32,557 bases of DNA. Origin: Campylobacterales bacterium (GTDB taxonomy: Bacteria; Campylobacterota; Campylobacteria; Campylobacterales; QNZT01). Under the pieces are notes generated by a model, which did not search any database, was not told the origin of the DNA, and saw only the letters and a list, made by a program, of their open reading frames with translations. Within the stretch, counting starts at the first letter, position 1. Each line of letters begins with the position of its first letter. Shown piece after piece: positions 1,261 to 14,794 of this stretch. The DNA lies in contig JAMOMC010000105.1 in the NCBI GenBank assembly GCA_027068765.1, forward strand, positions 1 through 32,557, written 5' to 3'. The translations under genes were made by a program, and so were the position numbers.

Positions 1261-2340
1261 ATGAGTAATTCAAAAAATATTTTAAATTATATGTTTGGTC
1301 TAAACACAATTGAAAACTTAAAAGATATTTTAAATGCAAAAAGAGCAGTTGAAAATCAATATGTTATATATTTTGTTGACGAATACTTTAGAAATAAAGA
1401 CTTAATTAACTGTTTGCCAATAGATAATCTAGATGTGTTATTTTTTGTGCAAACTATAGATGAGCCCAAAACAACTTTTATAAATAACTATAGAGATACC
1501 TTGCATAAAAGCAATAAAAACAATCCTTTTGCCATCGTTGCTATAGGTGGAGGTATCACACTCGATACAGGAAAAGCCGTTGCAAATATTTTAACAAACC
1601 CTGGAAATGCAGAAGATTATCAAGGATGGGATTTGATTAAAAATCCAGGTATTTATAAAATCGGTATTCCTACAATTTCTGGAACAGGAGCAGAAGCTAG
1701 TCGTACTTGTGTTATGACAAATGTTGAAAGTGGTTTGAAACTTGGTATGAATAGTGATTATACTATTTATGATCAACTTATTTTAGACCCAAATCTTACC
1801 AAAACTGTACCAAAAGAACAATATTTTTATACAGGGATGGATACGTATATTCATTGCATTGAGTCACTAAATGGTTCTTATAGACATCCTATGGGAGATG
1901 CTTATTCACGAGAAGCAATTTCTTTAGTAAAAGAAGTTTTTTTAAATGAAGACATGATGAGTGATGAAAATAGAGAAAAACTTATGGTAGCCTCTTATCT
2001 AGGTGGACAAGCAATTGCAAATAGTTATGTAGGATTAGTGCATCCATTTTCAGCTGGATTAAGTGTGGTTCTCGATACTCATCATTGTATAGGAAACTGT
2101 ATAACTATGAATGCAATGGAGGAATTTTATCCAAATGAATATAGAGAATTTATGCAAATGGCACGAAAACAAAATATAAAGATACCAAAGGGTATAGCAA
2201 GTAATTTAGATGATGAAACTTATTTAAAATTGTATAACTCAACAGTTATTCATGAAAAACCACTTAGTAATGCTCTTGGTGACAATTATAAAGAGATATT
2301 AACACTTGAAAAAGTAACTGAAATATTTAAAAGGATGTAA
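1261..2340 (+). CDS. kdnB: Iron-dependent alcohol dehydrogenase, KdnB-like (Kdo 8-oxidase)
   Basis: A 359-residue group III (Fe) alcohol dehydrogenase. The nucleotide-binding GGG lies at 96-98 (AIGGGITLDTGKAV), followed by PTISGTGAEAS. The four metal ligands of the family are present with correct spacing: D194 and H198 (MDTYIHCIE), H261 (VHPFSAG) and H275. In Shewanella, KdnB oxidises C8 of Kdo so that KdnA can aminate it to 8-amino-3,8-dideoxy-manno-octulosonate. The KdnB assignment rests on remembered family resemblance and on the directly adjacent aminotransferase (3-nt gap). It could be another sugar-oxidising Fe-ADH of the same clade. The gene follows a 161-bp AT-rich gap and is probably first in its operon. 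Confidence 0.72.
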   Translation: MSNSKNILNYMFGLNTIENLKDILNAKRAVENQYVIYFVDEYFRNKDLINCLPIDNLDVLFFVQTIDEPKTTFINNYRDTLHKSNKNNPFAIVAIGGGITLDTGKAVANILTNPGNAEDYQGWDLIKNPGIYKIGIPTISGTGAEASRTCVMTNVESGLKLGMNSDYTIYDQLILDPNLTKTVPKEQYFYTGMDTYIHCIESLNGSYRHPMGDAYSREAISLVKEVFLNEDMMSDENREKLMVASYLGGQAIANSYVGLVHPFSAGLSVVLDTHHCIGNCITMNAMEEFYPNEYREFMQMARKQNIKIPKGIASNLDDETYLKLYNSTVIHEKPLSNALGDNYKEILTLEKVTEIFKRM

Positions 2341-2343
2341 TCT

Positions 2344-3516
2344 ATGAATTTTAAAATACCTTTTAGCGGAAGGGCACATACTTATACAAAAAAAGAGCAA
2401 GAAGTTGTTATGGAAGTTATGCAAAATGCTATTCCTCTCACTCAAGGATGCTTTCAAAATGAGTTTCAAGAAAAATTTTGTCAATACATAGGAAGTGATT
2501 TTGCATTTGCAGTAAATAATGCAACTGCTGCACTAGAACTTTCAGCTCAAATATGTCAATTTAAAAATGGAGATGAGTTTATCTGTCCAGCACATACTTT
2601 TACAGCATCTGCTTATCCTTTTATTAAAAAAGGTGCTAAACCAGTTTGGGCAGATATAGATAAAGAGACAAGGGTTGTAAATGCTAATACGATAAAACTA
2701 TGTATTACACCTAAAACAAAGGCTATTGTAGTTGTTCATTTATATGGATTTTGTATAGATATGGAGCCTATTGTAAAGTTGGCAAAAGAGCATAATTTAT
2801 TTCTTATTGAAGATGTTGCACAAGCCATGGGAACAGATATAAATGGGAAAAAAGCTGGTACATTTGGTGATTTTGGTGTATTTTCTTTCCATTCTCATAA
2901 AAATATCACAACACTTGGTGAAGGTGGAATGCTTATTGTAAAAGATAAAAAATATGCTGAAATAATTCCACAACTTCGTCACAATGGTCATTGTGCGTGG
3001 GATATAGAGAGACCAAATTATTGGACACCTGCTATGGGAAATGTTGATTTACCATCTCTTGATGATAAATACTTAATGCCAAATAATTACTGTTTAGGTG
3101 AAGTTGAATGTGCATTAGGTGTTGTCTTATTGGATAGACTTGATGAAATAAATGCACAAAAGAGAGAAAGAGCATTAAAAATCATTGATGAATTAAGTAA
3201 GTATAAGTTACTACAATTCCATCGGGTAGAAGACAATCGTCACAATTATCATCTATTAGTTGCTTATGTCAAAGATGGTAAACGAGATATTTTTATGAAA
3301 AAAATGAGTGAAGAAAAAAAAATTCAATGTGTAGTGCAGTACTATCCCTTAAATCGTTATGATTTATATCAAAAACTTGGTTTTGGTGGGGCAAATTGTC
3401 CACAAACAGATGATTTTTTTGACAATATGGTCTCTTTTCCTTTTAATCATATGCTTTATGATTATGATATAGATTATCTTTTAGAGTCCATTAAAGAAAC
3501 AATTGAAGATATTTAG
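2344..3516 (+). CDS. kdnA: DegT/DnrJ/EryC1 PLP aminotransferase, KdnA-like
   Basis: A 390-residue sugar aminotransferase of the DegT family, fold-type I PLP enzymes. The PLP-phosphate-contacting region NNATAALELS is at 58-67, the ring-binding Asp at D157 (EDVAQAMG), and the Schiff-base lysine at K186 (FSFHSHKNITTLGEGG). Length and motifs are complete, so it should be active. It begins 3 nt after the Fe-ADH stop and uses an AAGGATG ribosome site inside that gene's last codons. The pair is most simply read as KdnB then KdnA: oxidation of the C8 hydroxyl of Kdo, then transamination from glutamate. An aminotransferase for another keto-sugar cannot be excluded. Confidence 0.72.
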   Translation: MNFKIPFSGRAHTYTKKEQEVVMEVMQNAIPLTQGCFQNEFQEKFCQYIGSDFAFAVNNATAALELSAQICQFKNGDEFICPAHTFTASAYPFIKKGAKPVWADIDKETRVVNANTIKLCITPKTKAIVVVHLYGFCIDMEPIVKLAKEHNLFLIEDVAQAMGTDINGKKAGTFGDFGVFSFHSHKNITTLGEGGMLIVKDKKYAEIIPQLRHNGHCAWDIERPNYWTPAMGNVDLPSLDDKYLMPNNYCLGEVECALGVVLLDRLDEINAQKRERALKIIDELSKYKLLQFHRVEDNRHNYHLLVAYVKDGKRDIFMKKMSEEKKIQCVVQYYPLNRYDLYQKLGFGGANCPQTDDFFDNMVSFPFNHMLYDYDIDYLLESIKETIEDI

Positions 3517-3519
3517 AGA

Positions 3520-5103
3520 ATGAAAGATTTTTGTATTGTAATCCCTGCAATTAAAAAAAATGCTATCATTCCTGATCAATTAATTAAAAAACTAGACGGA
3601 ATAACTTTAATACAAAGAGCTATTAATACATCCTTGGAGATTAGGGATTCATCTGATATTTTGATAGTAACAGATTCAGAAGAAATTTTACTTATTGCCG
3701 AGAGAAATAATATAGATTATCATTATGATAAAACATTAAAATTTAACTCTACAAATATACTTACAAAGTTGAATCCAATTTTAAAACGAAAAGTAGATAT
3801 ATATAAAAATATGATTCTTTATCGTGCCAATGCACCACTAATTAAGAGTGAAAAGATTTTGAAAGGATATGAAAAGTTTTTAACAAATGATTCATATATT
3901 TTAACTACAGTTGAATATAAAAATAAAGAAATTTATGAAGACGATAATGGCTCATTTGTTTTTAAGACAAAAAATTTCTATAAAGAGATTAAAGCTTTTC
4001 AAATACTTTCATTTAAAACATTGTTAAAAAAAGATTATAAATTCAGCCCTTTTATTTTAAATGAAGAAGAGTCTATTGAAATCGAAAAATATCAAGATTG
4101 GTGGATATGTGAAAAACTGCTTCAAAGAAAACGAATAGTTTTTAATGTAATTGGTTCTATTGAAATTGGCATGGGACATATATATCATTCATTAGCTTTA
4201 GCACATGAAATAACCAATCATGAGATTATTTTCATATGTGATAAACAGTATGAAATTGCGGTGGATAAGATAGCAGCTATGGATTATAAAGTAATAGCCA
4301 CAAATGATGTCCTAACAGAAATCATATCATTAAAACCTGATTTACTTATCAATGATATTCTCAATACAGAAGCAGAGTTTATTAAAAGAATAAAGCAAGA
4401 AGATATTAAAATTGTTAATTTTGAAGACCTTGGAGAAGGTTCAAAATATACCGACCTAACTATAAATGAACTGTATGATACTCCTCAATTTAAAGATGAT
4501 AATTATCTTTGGGGATATAAATATCTTTTTTTACGAGATGAATTTAACGAATCTAAACCTCATAATTTTATAGAACATATAAGTGGTGCTTTGATAACTT
4601 TTGGCGGTACAGATCAAAATAATTTAACTTTAATTGCTTTAAAAAGTATTATAAATATTTGTCAACAGTTTAATATCAAAATCTATCTACTATGTGGAAA
4701 AGGATATAGATACAAATCTAATTTAGAAAAATTTGTATCTAAATATAATGATGTTGATATTGAAATATTTTATACTACCAATACAGTTACAAAAATTATG
4801 GAAAAAACACAAGTTGCAATATCTTCTAATGGCAGAACTATTTATGAATTAGCAGATATGAATATTCCATCAATTATTATATCTCATCATAAAAGAGAAG
4901 CAACACATACATTCGCAACACTAGAGCACGGTTTTATTAACTTAGGTATTTTTAACAAGAATACTGAACAGTTAATCAAAAAAAATTTTAAAAAAATAGC
5001 TATAGATAGAATTTTTAGAAAGCTATTATATTTAAATATAAAAAAATTTCATTTTAGAGATAATAAACAGAAAATAGTTAAGAAAATTATGGAGTTATTA
5101 TGA
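3520..5103 (+). CDS. Fusion: degenerate CMP-sialate-synthetase-like domain + PseG-like glycosyl hydrolase
   Basis: A 527-residue two-domain protein. Residues 1 to about 200 resemble NeuA/PseF cytidylyltransferases, but the first motif reads IPAIKKNAIIPDQ where active enzymes have IPARxGSKxIPxKN; the key Arg, Gly and Ser are missing. Residues about 205-527 resemble PseG, the GT-B-fold UDP-sugar hydrolase of pseudaminic acid synthesis. The evidence is GSIEIGMGHIYHSLALA with H220 at the catalytic-base position, ALITFGGTDQNN at 357-368, and SSNGRTIYELA at 435-445. The hydrolase half may release a free amino sugar from its UDP form for the NeuB-like enzyme two genes downstream. The N-terminal half may be catalytically dead or altered. 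The start is 3 nt after the kdnA stop. Confidence 0.72.
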   Translation: MKDFCIVIPAIKKNAIIPDQLIKKLDGITLIQRAINTSLEIRDSSDILIVTDSEEILLIAERNNIDYHYDKTLKFNSTNILTKLNPILKRKVDIYKNMILYRANAPLIKSEKILKGYEKFLTNDSYILTTVEYKNKEIYEDDNGSFVFKTKNFYKEIKAFQILSFKTLLKKDYKFSPFILNEEESIEIEKYQDWWICEKLLQRKRIVFNVIGSIEIGMGHIYHSLALAHEITNHEIIFICDKQYEIAVDKIAAMDYKVIATNDVLTEIISLKPDLLINDILNTEAEFIKRIKQEDIKIVNFEDLGEGSKYTDLTINELYDTPQFKDDNYLWGYKYLFLRDEFNESKPHNFIEHISGALITFGGTDQNNLTLIALKSIINICQQFNIKIYLLCGKGYRYKSNLEKFVSKYNDVDIEIFYTTNTVTKIMEKTQVAISSNGRTIYELADMNIPSIIISHHKREATHTFATLEHGFINLGIFNKNTEQLIKKNFKKIAIDRIFRKLLYLNIKKFHFRDNKQKIVKKIMELL

Positions 5104-5783
5104 AAAGAGTAGGAATTATACAAGCTCGTTTAGGATCAACAAGACTACCATTAAAAATGTTACTTTCATTACACGGAAAACCAATTATCGAATGGGTAGT
5201 AACAAGAGTAAGACAATCAAAATTACTAGATGAAATTGTTGTTGCTATTCCAAATACAAAAGAGAATAATACTTTAGCAAAGTATTTGCAAAAACTAAAT
5301 GTGAAAGTGCATCGTGGTAGTGAAAATGATGTATTAAGTCGATTTTATAAAGTAGCAAAAGAGTATAATGCTACTCACATTATTCGTATTTGTGCGGATA
5401 ATCCACTTATTGATGGGGAGGAAATAGATAATTTAATCAAGTTTTATGAAAAAGAACAACCTGATTATGCATATAATCATATTCCTAAAAACAATAATTA
5501 CCCAGATGGAATTGGTGCCGAAATGGTATCTTTTGAACTTTTTGAAAAAATACACAATGATGCAAAAGAACAAGGACACAGAGAACATTGTTTGTCATAT
5601 ATTACTGATAATTATGATAAATTTAATATTAAAACTTTTGATCCTTTAGACAATCTTCTTTGTTATCCTGAGCTGAAATTTGATGTAGATACATTTAGCG
5701 ATTATGAAAAACTTGCAATGAAAGATATCAAGATAAATATAAATAGTAAAGAGTTAATAGCTCTGTTTTTGGAGAAAAAATGA
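5100..5783 (+). CDS. SpsF-like cytidylyltransferase-family protein
   Basis: A 227-residue nucleotidyltransferase of the SpsF/CMP-KDO-synthetase fold. The nucleotide-binding signature IIQARLGSTRLP is at residues 6-17, with RICADNPLID near 100 and a final FDVDT motif. SpsF proteins accompany SpsE/NeuB enzymes in spore-coat, flagellin-glycan and LPS loci and are presumed to make a CMP-sugar. Unlike the N-terminal half of the preceding fusion, the first motif is intact, so this could supply the missing cytidylyltransferase activity. The ATG overlaps the upstream stop (ATGA), indicating translational coupling; the next gene overlaps in the same way. Confidence 0.75.
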   Translation: MKRVGIIQARLGSTRLPLKMLLSLHGKPIIEWVVTRVRQSKLLDEIVVAIPNTKENNTLAKYLQKLNVKVHRGSENDVLSRFYKVAKEYNATHIIRICADNPLIDGEEIDNLIKFYEKEQPDYAYNHIPKNNNYPDGIGAEMVSFELFEKIHNDAKEQGHREHCLSYITDNYDKFNIKTFDPLDNLLCYPELKFDVDTFSDYEKLAMKDIKININSKELIALFLEKK

Positions 5784-6838
5784 AACTTATAGAATTATTT
5801 AAAACTATAAATCCTTATGAAAACAAGGTATACCAACCATATGTCATAGCCGAAATTGGTGTAAATCATGAGGGTAGTATGCAAACTGCAAAAAAACTTG
5901 TAGATGAAGCAAAAGAGGGTGGAGCAGATGCTGTCAAGTTTCAAAGCTATAAAGCTGAAACATTAGCATCTAAAGACTCACCATCTTACTGGGATACAAC
6001 AAAAGAACCAACCACTTCTCAATATAAGTTATTTAAAAAACATGATAGTTTTTGGATAAATGAGATGGAAGAGTTAAAAGAGTACTGTGATAGTGTTGAT
6101 ATAGAGTTTATGAGTACTCCTTTTGATATAGAATCAGCAGACTTTTTAAATGATATGATGGATGTATATAAAATATCATCATCAGACATTACAAACAAGC
6201 CTTTTATAGAGTATATTTGCAAATTCAACAAACCAATTATACTCTCAACAGGAGCAAGTAGTCTTCATGAGATACAAGAAGCGGTCTCTTGGATAGAGAA
6301 GTTTGGTAATTCACTTTCACTTTTACACTGTGTTTTGAATTATCCTACTCCAGATGAAAATGCCAACCTTGGAATGATTTTAGATTTAAAGCAAAAATTC
6401 CCAGATAAAATAATAGGCTATAGTGACCATACTTTACCAAAGGATATGAAAGTTTGTGAGATGGCTACAATGCTAGGATGTGTAATAATAGAAAAGCATT
6501 TTACCAATGATAAAACGCTACCAGGAAATGACCACTATCATGCTATGGATAAAGAAGATTTAAAAATATATAGAAAAAATCTTGAAAGAACTTTTGAGAT
6601 ATTAGGCAGTTTTAAAGTTGAAGCACTTGAAGATGAAGCACTTTCTCGTGCAAATGCAAGAAGAAGTTTAGTTGCTCTAATAGATATTCCAAAAGGTAAA
6701 ATAATAGAAAAAAATGACTTAACTTTCAAAAGACCAGCTTTTGGAGTAAGTCCTAAATTTATTGATGATATTGTAGGGCAAAAAGCAGGGCAAAATATAA
6801 AAGAAGATGATGTTTTAAAGTGGAATATGTTTGAGTAA
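5780..6838 (+). CDS. neuB: NeuB-family nonulosonic acid synthase with SAF domain
   Basis: A 352-residue enzyme condensing PEP with an N-acyl hexosamine to a 9-carbon 2-keto-3-deoxy acid. The NeuB barrel spans about residues 20-275, with AEIGVNHEG (E25), AVKFQSYK, FMSTPFD, KISSSD, ILSTGAS, GYSDHT, EKHFT and GNDHYHAM. An antifreeze-like SAF domain follows from about 285 to the end. The sequence alone does not separate NeuB (sialic), LegI (legionaminic), PseI (pseudaminic) and SpsE. No PseB/PseC or LegB/LegC is in the window, so the substrate is open; the PseG-like domain upstream hints at a diacetamido-trideoxyhexose. The ATGA overlap with the spsF-like gene implies coupled translation. Confidence 0.85.
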   Translation: MKLIELFKTINPYENKVYQPYVIAEIGVNHEGSMQTAKKLVDEAKEGGADAVKFQSYKAETLASKDSPSYWDTTKEPTTSQYKLFKKHDSFWINEMEELKEYCDSVDIEFMSTPFDIESADFLNDMMDVYKISSSDITNKPFIEYICKFNKPIILSTGASSLHEIQEAVSWIEKFGNSLSLLHCVLNYPTPDENANLGMILDLKQKFPDKIIGYSDHTLPKDMKVCEMATMLGCVIIEKHFTNDKTLPGNDHYHAMDKEDLKIYRKNLERTFEILGSFKVEALEDEALSRANARRSLVALIDIPKGKIIEKNDLTFKRPAFGVSPKFIDDIVGQKAGQNIKEDDVLKWNMFE

Positions 6839-9952: not shown

Positions 9953-12304
9953 TTGTCTATAAATATTCTTGATTGCACATTAAGAGATGGTGGATATGTA
10001 AACTCATTTTTATTTAATAATAATCAAATAAAAAGTATAATAACTAATTTACAAAATGCCAAAATCGATATTGTTGAATGCGGTTTTTTAGATCACGATA
10101 GCGGAAAAGAGAGTGATTTTACACGATTTAAAAGTTGTAAATCAATTAACAAATTATTAAAAGATATTCCAAGTGAATCAAATACACTGAAAGTTGCTAT
10201 GATTGAATATGGCAAATATAATATTCACAACTTGCCAAAAATCGATACATCTATATCAAATCAAATTAATGGTATTCGTTTTTCTTTTAGAAAACCAGAC
10301 CATTTGGAAGTATATTCGCAAATGGAAAGTATTGTAGAAAAGGGGTATAAACTTTTTATTCAGCCTATTGCCACTGAATCATACACCGATAGTGAAATCA
10401 TAAATTTTATTCAACAGTGCAACCAACTAAATGCTACAGCAATGTATATTGTAGATACACACGGCTCTATGTTTAGAGATGATTTTAGACGACTCTATTA
10501 TCTATTTGAACACAATTTAAATCCTAAAACCTCTTTAGGTTTTCACTCGCACAATAACTTACAACTATCATATTCTAATGCTATAGATTTTATAGAAATT
10601 TCTTCATATTCAAACAGAAATATTATGATAGACGCATCTATATACGGAATGGGAAGAGGTGCTGGAAATTTAAATACCGAATTACTGGCTAATTATATCA
10701 ACAGAAGAGTGGGTATAAAATATGATATAGATCCGCTATTAGAGGTTGTTGATAAGTACTTATTAAGTATACACAAAAACAATAGTTGGGGATATTCATT
10801 GGAGCATTTTTTGTCTGCAACCGAATATTGTCATCCAAATTATGCTTCTTTTTTAATTAATAAAAAAAATTTAGCTATCACTGAAATAAAACAATTGTTA
10901 TCAAATATACCTACAAAAGAGCGTAGAGAATTTAATAAAAATATCATAGAACAGATATATATTGCTCATAAAGAAAAACTAATCCTCTCAATTAAAAACC
11001 TAAATAATGATTTTTTTAATTCTAAAATATTGTTAATTGCCTCAGGAAACAGTGTGAAAGAGCACACAAATAAAATAATAAATCGTATTAAAAAAGAGCT
11101 ATATATAACTATTGGTTTAAATCATATTGACTCTTATATAAAAACAGATTATCTATTTTTTTCAAATCAGATCCGATATGATGAATTTTGTGATTTTATA
11201 GAAGATTCTAATAAATTGATTATCACATCCAATATCAAAGTAAAAGCAACACATAATGATTGCTATGTGCTTAACTATAAAGAACTTTTTAATTTTATGG
11301 ATATAAAAGTAGACAATGTGGCAATTTTATTGCTAAATTATTTTATTATGAATTCTGTACAAGATATTGCAATTGCAGGGTTTGATGGATATAGTAAAAA
11401 TAGTATGAGCAATTATAGTTATCAAGAGTGTAATCAAATTATAGAAGAGAGTGCCATATCGAATTTAAATAGAGATTTATCAGATGCAATAAAAAAAATA
11501 TCTAATAAAATTCATTTAACCTATATAACTTCATCTATGTTTAAGAAGTTTTCAAAACAAAAAATTATTGGAATAATTCCTGCGAGATACGCATCTAGTA
11601 GATTGCCAGGTAAACCTTTGAAAGACATCTGCGGATTACCGATGATCATACATGTTTTAAAACGAGCTCAAATGTCAAAAATACTAGATGAGCTTTATGT
11701 TGCTACTGATGATTTACGCATTTATAATGTCGTTGAAAAATATGGTGGTAAAGCAATTATGACGGATATAAAACATAGTAATGCCACAGAAAGAGTTTAT
11801 GAAATTTCTCAAAAAATACAAGGAGACTTATATATTATTATCAATGGTGATGAGCCGTTGTTAACTCCTAAACACATAGATATTCTTATAGATAAATCGA
11901 TGCAACTAAATGCAAATATTGCCATGCTTTATAACGATTTTTATAAAAAGAATTCACCTTCAGATCAAAAAGTAGTTGTTAATAAAAAAGAAGAAATTAT
12001 ATATATTTCAAGAAGTGATATACCTTATGGTTATAAAGAAGGAGTAAAAAAAATGCATAAGGCTTATTTTATTGTCTCTTTTGTAAAAGATTTTTTGGAT
12101 ACCTATATGACTTTAGAAAATACACCTCTAAGTACTACAGAATCTAATGAGTTTACAAAAGTTCTTGAACATGGATATAAAATACAAGGTGTGAAAGTAA
12201 GCAGTAGTGCCATAAGTGTTGATACTCAAGAAGATTTAGTTTTTGTTAGGAAAGAGATGGCAAATAATATAATATTTGATAAGTACAGGACTATTATTGA
12301 TTAA
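9953..12304 (+). CDS. Three-domain protein: DRE-TIM pyruvate aldolase + middle domain + CMP-Kdo-synthetase-like domain
   Basis: A 783-residue protein translated from TTG, with AAGG at 9941-9944 placed 8 nt upstream. Residues 1 to about 300 are an HMGL/DmpG-type aldolase with TLRDGG (R11, D12), metal-binding FHSHNN (H198, H200) and GMGRGAGN (232-239), as in 4-hydroxy-2-oxovalerate aldolase. Residues about 355-530 begin ILLIASGNSV and contain GLNHIDSY and AGFDGY, a pattern recalling DUF115/MptE-like or GT42-like Rossmann domains. Residues about 538-770 are KdsB-like: IIPARYASSRLPGKPL, ATDD, NGDEPL (631-636) and VDTQEDL (756-762). The usual SGTDR of KdsB reads NATER (610-614). All catalytic motifs look intact, so the protein may both handle a 2-keto-4-hydroxy acid and activate a keto-deoxy sugar with CTP. 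Confidence 0.8.
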   Translation: MSINILDCTLRDGGYVNSFLFNNNQIKSIITNLQNAKIDIVECGFLDHDSGKESDFTRFKSCKSINKLLKDIPSESNTLKVAMIEYGKYNIHNLPKIDTSISNQINGIRFSFRKPDHLEVYSQMESIVEKGYKLFIQPIATESYTDSEIINFIQQCNQLNATAMYIVDTHGSMFRDDFRRLYYLFEHNLNPKTSLGFHSHNNLQLSYSNAIDFIEISSYSNRNIMIDASIYGMGRGAGNLNTELLANYINRRVGIKYDIDPLLEVVDKYLLSIHKNNSWGYSLEHFLSATEYCHPNYASFLINKKNLAITEIKQLLSNIPTKERREFNKNIIEQIYIAHKEKLILSIKNLNNDFFNSKILLIASGNSVKEHTNKIINRIKKELYITIGLNHIDSYIKTDYLFFSNQIRYDEFCDFIEDSNKLIITSNIKVKATHNDCYVLNYKELFNFMDIKVDNVAILLLNYFIMNSVQDIAIAGFDGYSKNSMSNYSYQECNQIIEESAISNLNRDLSDAIKKISNKIHLTYITSSMFKKFSKQKIIGIIPARYASSRLPGKPLKDICGLPMIIHVLKRAQMSKILDELYVATDDLRIYNVVEKYGGKAIMTDIKHSNATERVYEISQKIQGDLYIIINGDEPLLTPKHIDILIDKSMQLNANIAMLYNDFYKKNSPSDQKVVVNKKEEIIYISRSDIPYGYKEGVKKMHKAYFIVSFVKDFLDTYMTLENTPLSTTESNEFTKVLEHGYKIQGVKVSSSAISVDTQEDLVFVRKEMANNIIFDKYRTIID

Positions 12305-12929
12305 AAATATTTTATTTGATTTTGATGGTGTCATTCTTGATTCGATGGAGATTCGAGATTATGGCTTTAAAAAAATAGTTTCCACATATCCAAAAGAGAT
12401 GGTTGATGATTTTATAAAATATCATAGATACAATGCAGGACTTTCAAGATTTGTAAAAATTAAATATTTTTATAATCACTATTTGGATCAAGAGATAAGT
12501 AAATTAGAAATTCAAGTTTTAGCAGATAAATTTTCTAAGATTATGAGAGAGAAGTTACCAAATAAAAAATATCTAATTAAAGAGGCACTTGATTTTATAA
12601 AACAAAATAACTCTAATATGCATATAGTCTCAGGATCAGAGGAAAAAGAACTAAATTTTCTATGTAACAAACTTGAAATTTACAAATACTTTAAAACTAT
12701 TGAAGGGTCTCCAACCCCTAAAGTTAATTTGGTTAAAAATATTATGCTTCATTTTAACTACGAGCCTAGAGAAACGATTTTAATTGGTGACAGTATCAAT
12801 GACTATGAAGCTGCAAAAGATAATTATATAGATTTTTATGGTTATAACAATAAAGACTTAATCAAATTTTCCAAACAATATATTTATTCATTTCAAGAGA
12901 CCTTTAAAAATATAGAAATAAAAAAATGA
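12297..12929 (+). CDS. HAD-superfamily (subfamily I) phosphatase
   Basis: About 210 residues with all four HAD motifs: DFDGVI (nucleophile D8, acid D10), VSGS (S112), the lysine K142 in SPTPKVN, and IGDSINDY (D165, D169). A helical cap lies between motifs 1 and 2. I chose the TTG at 12297, because AGGA at 12287-12290 lies 6 nt before it and IKNILFDFDG is the normal HAD beginning; a TTG at 12276 is possible. It overlaps the end of the aldolase/KdsB fusion by 8 bp. It may remove phosphate from a sugar-phosphate intermediate (as KdsC or sialate-9-phosphatase do), but the substrate is unknown. Confidence 0.8.
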   Translation: MIKNILFDFDGVILDSMEIRDYGFKKIVSTYPKEMVDDFIKYHRYNAGLSRFVKIKYFYNHYLDQEISKLEIQVLADKFSKIMREKLPNKKYLIKEALDFIKQNNSNMHIVSGSEEKELNFLCNKLEIYKYFKTIEGSPTPKVNLVKNIMLHFNYEPRETILIGDSINDYEAAKDNYIDFYGYNNKDLIKFSKQYIYSFQETFKNIEIKK

Positions 12930-14794
12930 ATTTAGTTTTTTTAAATACTGAGAAATTTGTAGATATTCAACTCAATAACGAAAAGACATATATTTTAGAT
13001 TTTAATGGCAATAGTGAAAACTTATATTTTAAAAATCTTTCAAAATATAATATAGAAAAAATTAACTTTTTAGAAGAGTTTGAAAACAGTAAAGAAGAGT
13101 TAAAAAAAGATTATTTAGAATGGATTTATAATTTTCCACTCCAACAAATCTCGGATACAACAATATTGAAATATATGAAGTTTGATGACAACTATTCATT
13201 GTGGTGGTCAACAAAATTAGCGGAAAAAAATCCTCTAAAATCTGACAGCCTTTTTAGGTCTCTAAAATTAATAAAAACAGTTGACATCATCAATCAATTA
13301 AAGATTAAAAAGATATATATTTTAAGTGATAAACAAGATATTTCGATAACTTTACAAAATTTTGCTCAAAAAAACTCAATTCAATACATCAATAAAATTA
13401 AAACGAAACATAAATTTAATTTAAAATCTTTTTTTCTTAAATCAACTTTATTATCTTCAATCTATTTTTTAAGCAGAGAAATTAAACATACCTTGACTGC
13501 AAAAAAGATGCTAAAACATTTCAATAATACAGAAGATATAAATTCTATATTAACATATTATCCCAATATAGATAAAGAAGGCTATCAAAAAGGAAATTTC
13601 ATCAGTAAGTATTGGGGTAAAGAGCTACATCATCTATTTGAAAAAGATAGTGTTAATCATATACTATTTTATACTGCGAAAAAAGAGTTATCATACAAGC
13701 AATTCATTGAAGATTTGATAATGTACAAAACTAATAACCCTAAAAATAATTATATATCTATTGAGCAATTTAACAAAATTTATGACTTATTTAAGCTATT
13801 TGCAAAGATTGCTTTTTTTACAAAAAAATATAAGATTTTATTTGATAGCAAGTTGTTTTTAATGCCTAATAAAAATATCAATTTATTTGAAATACATAAA
13901 GATGATTGGCAAGAATCTATCTCTGGCAGGAGTCTTGTTCTAGCATTGATATGGTTATATAAATATAATAAGGTATTTAAAAATTTAAAAACATCAAACT
14001 CTCTTTTTTATTTACTTGAGATGCAGGGCTGGGAAGGTATTGTAAACCATACTTATCATAAAAACTGTTCTACAAAAAGCTATGGAGTTGTTCATGTTAC
14101 ATTAAAAACTATGATGTTAAACTATTTTAACAAACCAGAGACTTATCAATTAATAAATTTTTCATATCCATTGCCCAATATTATAGCTTGCAACGGAAAA
14201 AAATCTAAAGAATTTTTTAGTTCTCAAGGATTAAATAATTTAAAAGAAGTAGAAGCAAACAGATATAGTTATCTGGCAGAAACAGACACTACAAAGAGAG
14301 ATATCAAAAATAATACAGCTTTGATTACAACATCAATTAACTTTAAAGAGAGTCAAGAGCTTTTGATGAAATTCTCCCAAGCTTATAATAAATGTAAAAA
14401 AAAATTTACAAAAATCATTATCAAACCACACCCAAATTTGAATGTCAAAGAAATTATAGATAATATCAAAGACTTCCCTCAATATGAACAAGTTAATACT
14501 TCTATAAATATTTTATTAAAAAATGTATCTGTGGTCATCACAACAAACAGCTCTTCGGTTCTTGTAGAATCACTTTTTAATAATATACAAACAATTACAT
14601 TAATATCTTTAAATAGTTTAAATATGGCAGCTATTGAAAAACATACCTTACTCACAATAGCCAAAGATATAGATACATTTTCTAAAGCTTTGGATCAACC
14701 TATTACAAAAAATGAAAACAACCATAAAGAGAATTTCTTATTTTTAAATAAAAAATTCTCTTTATGGAAAAAACTAATTAGTCAAATTAATTAA
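12926..14794 (+). CDS. Large putative surface-carbohydrate biosynthesis/transferase protein
   Basis: A 622-residue protein with no membrane segment. An early SLWWSTKLAEKNPLKS block (about residues 91-106) resembles, from memory, the surface-carbohydrate family TIGR04326. The C-terminal third carries GT-B-like motifs IIIKPHPN and TTNSSSVLVESLFN, as in CDP-glycerol/polysialyl-type transferases. Together these suggest a cytoplasmic glycosyl- or phosphosugar transferase acting on the lipid-linked glycan. It is translationally coupled to the phosphatase (ATGA overlap). The N-terminal half has no function I can name. Confidence 0.5.
   Translation: MNLVFLNTEKFVDIQLNNEKTYILDFNGNSENLYFKNLSKYNIEKINFLEEFENSKEELKKDYLEWIYNFPLQQISDTTILKYMKFDDNYSLWWSTKLAEKNPLKSDSLFRSLKLIKTVDIINQLKIKKIYILSDKQDISITLQNFAQKNSIQYINKIKTKHKFNLKSFFLKSTLLSSIYFLSREIKHTLTAKKMLKHFNNTEDINSILTYYPNIDKEGYQKGNFISKYWGKELHHLFEKDSVNHILFYTAKKELSYKQFIEDLIMYKTNNPKNNYISIEQFNKIYDLFKLFAKIAFFTKKYKILFDSKLFLMPNKNINLFEIHKDDWQESISGRSLVLALIWLYKYNKVFKNLKTSNSLFYLLEMQGWEGIVNHTYHKNCSTKSYGVVHVTLKTMMLNYFNKPETYQLINFSYPLPNIIACNGKKSKEFFSSQGLNNLKEVEANRYSYLAETDTTKRDIKNNTALITTSINFKESQELLMKFSQAYNKCKKKFTKIIIKPHPNLNVKEIIDNIKDFPQYEQVNTSINILLKNVSVVITTNSSSVLVESLFNNIQTITLISLNSLNMAAIEKHTLLTIAKDIDTFSKALDQPITKNENNHKENFLFLNKKFSLWKKLISQIN

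Follow-up and report, generated by a model that had tools for sequence, protein, structure and literature searches.

The window, by which we mean the whole analysed stretch of 32,557 nt from a Campylobacterales bacterium, carries a gene for a three-domain fusion protein among genes related to sugar acids. The features considered here are:

1261–6838, forward strand: second sugar-acid pathway (KdnB-family Fe-ADH, DegT aminotransferase, PseF–PseG-like fusion, CTP transferase and NeuB); block kept in locus L151
8442–9947, forward strand: Wzx-type flippase (PF01943), 5 nt upstream of the fusion gene; 53–63% identical in L147–L151
9953–12304, forward strand: fusion gene, with an HMGL/DmpG-type aldolase (residues 1–330), a Rossmann-like domain (~350–530) and a KdsB-like cytidylyltransferase (536–783)
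9953–10942, forward strand: predicted aldolase domain, residues 1–330; HMGL/DRE-TIM barrel (PF00682, 1.6e-17; PDB and Foldseek matches 3dxi and 1nvm)
11000–11542, forward strand: middle domain, residues ~350–530; predicted Rossmannoid, distantly MptE/DUF115- or SteA-like, with bounds taken from an HMM of relatives
11558–12301, forward strand: predicted KdsB-like CMP-sugar-acid synthetase domain, residues 536–783 (PF02348, 1.4e-37; Foldseek 1gqc/1h6j, probability 1.00)
12297–12929, forward strand: HAD phosphatase (HAD_2, 1.2e-18), with a likely TTG start at 12297 that overlaps the stop codon of the fusion gene

The fusion gene is an intact open reading frame with a TTG start and a product of 783 amino acids. 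The motifs TLRDGGY, HSH and GMGRGAGN occupy residues 9–15, 198–200 and 232–239, while PARYASSRLPGKP, NGDEPL and VDTQEDL are located in the KdsB part at residues 543–555, 631–636 and 756–762. Pfam identified an HMGL-like domain (residues 3–253, E = 1.6e-17) and a CTP_transf_3 domain (539–743, E = 1.4e-37), both far above the cut-off. Sequence matches in the PDB included the CMP-Kdo synthetase 1gq9 (4.7e-42), the putative aldolase 3dxi (5.7e-23) and DmpG, 1nvm (9.8e-14). The AlphaFold2 model of the full chain, built from a 45-row alignment, had a pLDDT of 92.4 and a pTM of 0.83, and a Foldseek search with this model placed the barrel with 3dxi and 1nvm and the C-terminus with the CMP-Kdo synthetases 1h6j and 1gqc, all at a probability of 1.00. 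The initial annotation had described an aldolase, a Rossmann-like and a KdsB-like domain in a single 783-residue chain; the reading frame, the motif positions and the Pfam, PDB and AlphaFold2 results are all in agreement with this description. Since the same three-domain chain is encoded in eight other genomes of Campylobacterota, Verrucomicrobiota and Bacillota (~35–50% identity), the fusion is real and is no sequencing artefact.

The N-terminal domain displays the characteristics of the HMGL/DRE-TIM class II pyruvate aldolase superfamily, namely TLRDG with its Arg and Asp, the HxH metal ligands and a TIM barrel. Residues R11, D12, E42, D168, H198, H200, N239 and E243 are invariant in 92 relatives, and the metal ligands are thus retained in all of them. 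This set corresponds to the enolate-binding R17 and the metal ligands D18, H200 and H202 of DmpG. The equivalent of the catalytic His21 of DmpG is Tyr15, as it is Tyr in 84 of the 92 family members; this Tyr could act as acid/base in place of His. The barrel, the Arg, the Asp and the two His metal ligands are common to the fusion, DmpG/BphI 4-hydroxy-2-oxovalerate aldolase and 3dxi. Unlike DmpG/BphI, the fusion has Tyr15 for His21, falls below the NCBIfam cut-offs for 4-hydroxy-2-oxovalerate aldolase (DmpG/MhpE; TIGR03217, 83.4 versus 286 bits; NF006049, 88.5 versus 229 bits), lacks a Pfam hit for the C-terminal domain of DmpG and is seen without an acetaldehyde dehydrogenase partner. Pyruvate aldol activity is predicted for the barrel. 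A Claisen-type condensing enzyme, acting on acyl-CoA and a keto acid in the manner of isopropylmalate or homocitrate synthase, would belong to the same superfamily, and LeuA and homocitrate synthase were indeed matched weakly (39–36 bits). Such an enzyme is nevertheless very improbable here, since 4-hydroxy-2-oxovalerate aldolases (88 bits) and 3dxi match better and HpcH/HpaI pyruvate aldolases substitute for the barrel in sister operons (see below).

The middle domain, modelled alone with a pLDDT of 90.6, appears to be Rossmannoid. Its best and sole significant fold match in Foldseek was SteA, a cell-division regulator (probability 1.00, TMq 0.50–0.53). No Pfam match to PF01973 (MptE-like/DUF115) above the cut-off was obtained for the middle domain of the window protein, and one of 11 relatives matched this family weakly (7.8e-4). 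Any relation to MptE/DUF115 appears weak, with a probability of just 22% in an hhalign comparison with true MptE-like domains. A GT42/sialyltransferase nature, suspected from motifs, found no support in Foldseek.

In the C-terminal domain, the CTP P-loop PARYASSRLPGKP, ATDD, GDEP (as NGDEPL) and VDT (as SVDT) are kept. The conserved residues include the two Mg-binding Asp (Asp98 and Asp225 of 1GQ9; PMC2901514) along with the P-loop. The Gln of KdsB that touches both sugar and metal (Gln96 of 1GQ9, Gln98 of L-CKS; PMC2901514) is replaced by Asn631, turning QGDEP into NGDEP. Both catalytic parts had earlier been called intact, which holds for the aldolase metal ligands and the KdsB catalytic motifs and fails at two positions, Tyr15 and Asn631. 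The sugar-site motifs HxGIYxF and EKLEQLR of canonical Campylobacterota KdsBs read HKAYFIVSF and TESNEFTK in the fusion, and the TIGR00466 KdsB equivalog cut-off of 155.2 was narrowly missed (150.6 bits for the domain in the genome search, 146.9 in the protein scan). By mechanism, the domain is predicted to be a CMP-sugar-acid synthetase, which does not imply specificity for CMP-Kdo.

Among 399 genomes of the order searched for the full fusion, it was present in the window and in four other genomes (50–39% identity); split versions occur elsewhere. A search of genome contigs with an alignment query revealed 577 places encoding relatives of the aldolase plus middle domain. The best 80 of these 577 were examined, of which 79 loci were analysable; the relatives among these best 80 belong to Bacillota, Bacteroidota, Campylobacterota, Verrucomicrobiota, Melainabacteria, Fusobacteriota, a Treponema and one archaeon. 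Overall, nine full fusions from three phyla were found (the window, L033–L036, L051, L052, L054 and L069). "Relatives" in Salmonella and Legionella (phage and plasmid records) were dropped because their surroundings are catabolic or unrelated. L044/L045 encode a short aldolase beside FliK and RNase H that represents a different branch.

A CMP-sugar synthetase is fused to the aldolase in four of the 79 loci and immediately adjacent in a further 50 (together 54/79), whereas 2000 draws of random centres gave a mean of 7.6 and a maximum of 17 adjacent synthetases. Half of the 50 are KdsB-class (25) and half NeuA-class (25). The usual gene order is synthetase, aldolase, phosphatase. A HAD gene is adjacent to the aldolase in 34/79 loci and a KdsC-family gene lies within two genes of it in 11/79; five KdsC-like genes beside the aldolase or its synthetase (L075, L090, L095, L103 and L112) scored 143–175 bits with TIGR01670 (cut-off 107). 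The HAD gene of the window has all four HAD motifs intact (DFDG, SGS, PK and GDS). In the Campylobacterota loci L033–L038, L052 and L054, its orthologue comes directly after the aldolase gene or the associated KdsB gene, and the HpcH-type sister operons have one as well. Phosphatase genes are frequent companions of the module, and each Campylobacterota fusion has one immediately alongside; the aldehyde therefore probably carries a phosphate group, which makes a third enzyme necessary.

In the aldolase tree, all nine fusions clustered with three unfused relatives in a single group of 12 rows. In the KdsB tree, by contrast, the window and L033 were separated from the remaining seven fusions and joined the KdsBs of HpcH operons, with 93% support and on long branches. 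The fusion therefore arose more than once, or domains were exchanged. A KdsB remnant with up to 62% identity to the domain of the window was detected in genome G302 (L046:11158–11751); its frame is broken and the aldolase is absent alongside.

The Wzx-type flippase serves as the syntenic landmark for comparing the fusion locus with the sister operons (loci L146–L151). Locus L151 shares with the window the whole set of genes that precede the fusion (KdnB-like, DegT, PseF-G, CTP transferase, NeuB, an unknown protein and Wzx), conserved at 45–81%. In the slot of the fusion, however, it encodes a 255-aa HpcH/HpaI aldolase (PF03328, 1.6e-37) followed by a separate KdsB; a HAD with 54% identity is located further on. 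An HpcH/HpaI-type aldolase also precedes KdsB in L146–L150 (that of L147, which was checked, gave 191 bits to HpaI), and the HAD is present in five of the six sister loci (49–54% identical), the exception being the short contig L148. HpaI-type enzymes are pyruvate aldolases. Those of the sister operons belong to an unrelated family and are encoded by a separate gene, unlike the fused HMGL-type aldolase, but share its operon slot and its KdsB and HAD partners. That this slot is filled by either of two unrelated aldolase families, while the partners stay the same, suggests that pyruvate aldol chemistry is what has been conserved, and it favours a PEP-free route.

The Fe-ADH heading the 1261–6838 block resembles KdnB-family Kdo 8-oxidases (5k8c, 3e-92; next family, 6e-26), and the block suggests that a terminally aminated nonulosonic acid occurs in the same polymer. 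Positions 12926–14794 of the window encode a TIGR04326 surface carbohydrate biosynthesis protein (Leptospira O-antigen type) with no Pfam match.

Genomes G361 and G414 have just the fusion and the HAD gene inserted between the single housekeeping waaA and apparently non-polysaccharide genes, one of them pseudouridine-synthase-like. This suggests that the two proteins would be enough to make an activated sugar from central metabolites, which is perhaps used by WaaA in these organisms. An extra Kdo transferase travelling with the fusion was considered for L036 and L054 and rejected; the one WaaA per genome is the housekeeping copy.

The host genome carries KdsA, NeuB and WaaA, and a genome search found no separate canonical KdsB in it. 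An IS200-like transposase remnant occupies the syntenic kdsB site (G000 C86, L165:5505–5927), at which four genus mates have kdsB. Because KdsA and NeuB are present and a separate KdsB is absent, the KdsB domain of this host could be fed by PEP routes, and in this strain the fusion might also have to make CMP-Kdo. Alternatively, the KdsB domain could activate Kdo from the host KdsA, or Kdo modified by the KdnB-like enzyme, with the aldolase working in the breakdown direction and cleaving surplus keto-acid. Such a role would fit the empty kdsB site in a host with KdsA and WaaA, the KdnB-family Kdo 8-oxidase in the same cluster, the position of the fusion behind waaA in G361 and G414, and the known Kdo aldolase reaction, which converts Kdo to D-arabinose and pyruvate (cited in PMC4412817). 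We consider it rather unlikely, however, since canonical KdsB is kept by every other Campylobacterota carrier tested, the pocket motifs of these canonical copies are altered in the fusion, and Bacillota carriers lack KdsA. Twelve Campylobacterota genomes whose module is fused, split or HpcH-type retain a canonical KdsB (240–273 bits), a finding in favour of another sugar for the module; this retention and the differing pocket motifs suggest that the sugar of the fusion is probably not Kdo.

Should the ulosonate be a product of the aldolase, neither KdsA nor NeuB would be required in carriers. None of the 12 Bacillota carriers tested has KdsA: their best matches scored 100–131 bits, which is the level of DAHP-synthase relatives and is also reached in Bacillus subtilis, versus at least 367 bits for true KdsA. 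NeuB was absent (30–44 bits) from nine of the 11 Bacillota carriers with a synthetase fused or close by; the other two have true NeuB (241–340 bits). In G399 (Pseudogracilibacillus), a carrier of the full fusion without KdsA and NeuB, the fusion is the sole KdsB-like protein. Incomplete assembly is possible for each single genome but unlikely as the cause of a gap common to nine. These nine module-bearing Bacillota, which lack both KdsA and NeuB, favour the view that a CMP-activated 3-deoxy-ulosonic acid is made without PEP.

The reading put forward in the initial annotation, that one protein may make a 3-deoxy-ulosonic acid without PEP and activate it with CTP, gains support from comparative genomics: the intact metal ligands and KdsB motifs, the adjacency of synthetases across phyla, the nine Bacillota without a PEP-dependent ulosonate synthase, and the aldolase swap all point to it. 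We consider the fusion likely to be a bifunctional sugar-acid enzyme. Its N-terminal metal-dependent barrel would couple pyruvate enolate with an aldehyde that is probably a sugar phosphate, to yield a 3-deoxy-2-ulosonate or its phosphate. The co-translated HAD protein would take off the phosphate, and the KdsB-like domain would use CTP to form the CMP-ulosonate, which would draw the reversible aldol step towards synthesis. The product would be delivered to a surface polysaccharide or LPS. The direction, substrate, product and order of these steps are what we infer from the observed architecture, intact catalytic motifs and conserved module. With less assurance, we lean towards a widespread and so far unrecognised PEP-independent route to CMP-activated 3-deoxy-ulosonic acids, in which an HMGL-type pyruvate aldolase takes the place of the PEP synthase, in some cases within one chain with the product-trapping CMP synthetase, and which would operate also in Gram-positives without KdsA and NeuB.

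In the established bacterial routes to CMP-activated ulosonic acids (Kdo, sialic, legionaminic and pseudaminic acids), the C–C bond is formed with PEP. This is the case in Neu5Ac biosynthesis (PMC10795189). The proposed route would share ulosonate synthesis, dephosphorylation and CMP activation with the Kdo pathway (KdsA–KdsC–KdsB); the KdsB-like domain is homologous and a KdsC-family phosphatase is present in some modules. It differs in its sugar-pocket motifs and in having a pyruvate-type aldolase instead of the PEP-dependent KdsA. The laboratory one-pot system of sialic acid aldolase and CMP-sialic acid synthetase follows the same logic of coupling a reversible pyruvate aldolase to a CMP synthetase (PMC10795189), but is an artificial mix in which NeuA works with a class I (Schiff-base) lyase, whereas the fusion is a natural single chain. 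While CMP-ulosonate synthesis itself is known, a pyruvate aldolase in the role of the PEP synthase would be new; a literature search limited to open-licence PMC papers found none on an aldolase-based CMP-ulosonate pathway. If the proposal is true, many gut and marine bacteria would make unknown acidic sugars that are missed by KdsA/NeuB-based genome searches. The module would then represent in nature what chemists set up as cascades of an aldolase and a CMP synthetase to obtain such sugars, and would offer sequence-level candidates for Kdo-aldolase-type activity.

No synthetase is located within three genes of the aldolase in 22/79 loci, many of which have a TPP enzyme and some RfbH plus CDP-glucose dehydratase. 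The product of the family is therefore not always CMP-activated, and the 4-hydroxy-2-oxo acid of these members may also serve branched-sugar synthesis. The aldolase product of the fusion could go to another enzyme, such as a TPP-dependent carboligase for branched sugars, with the KdsB domain acting on a different sugar acid and the fusion serving co-expression alone. A TPP enzyme does occur near the aldolase in 18 loci, in some of them with RfbH and CDP-glucose 4,6-dehydratase, but these mostly lack a CMP-sugar synthetase, and it was not found in the window or the other fusion loci examined. Moreover, the module of G361 and G414 consists of the fusion and the HAD alone, and in the nine Bacillota carriers there is no other ulosonate synthase that could supply the synthetase. 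This division of labour is accordingly improbable for the fusion, and a bifunctional enzyme remains the preferred reading.

In L105, L107, L117, L118, L123, L126 and L128, the aldolase occurs without a CMP-sugar synthetase beside a TPP enzyme, in several cases with RfbH or CDP-glucose 4,6-dehydratase; the products of these loci are possibly branched 3,6-dideoxyhexoses. A Desulfobaculum plasmid (L048:8837–13005) carries a row of RfbH, a split transketolase and a 337-aa aldolase of the same family as that of the fusion. Finally, a PfkB sugar kinase is encoded directly behind or near the aldolase in L050, L053, L068 and L119; those of L053 and L068 resemble 2-keto-3-deoxygluconate kinases and the kinase half of KHG/KDPG aldolase/kinase fusions.
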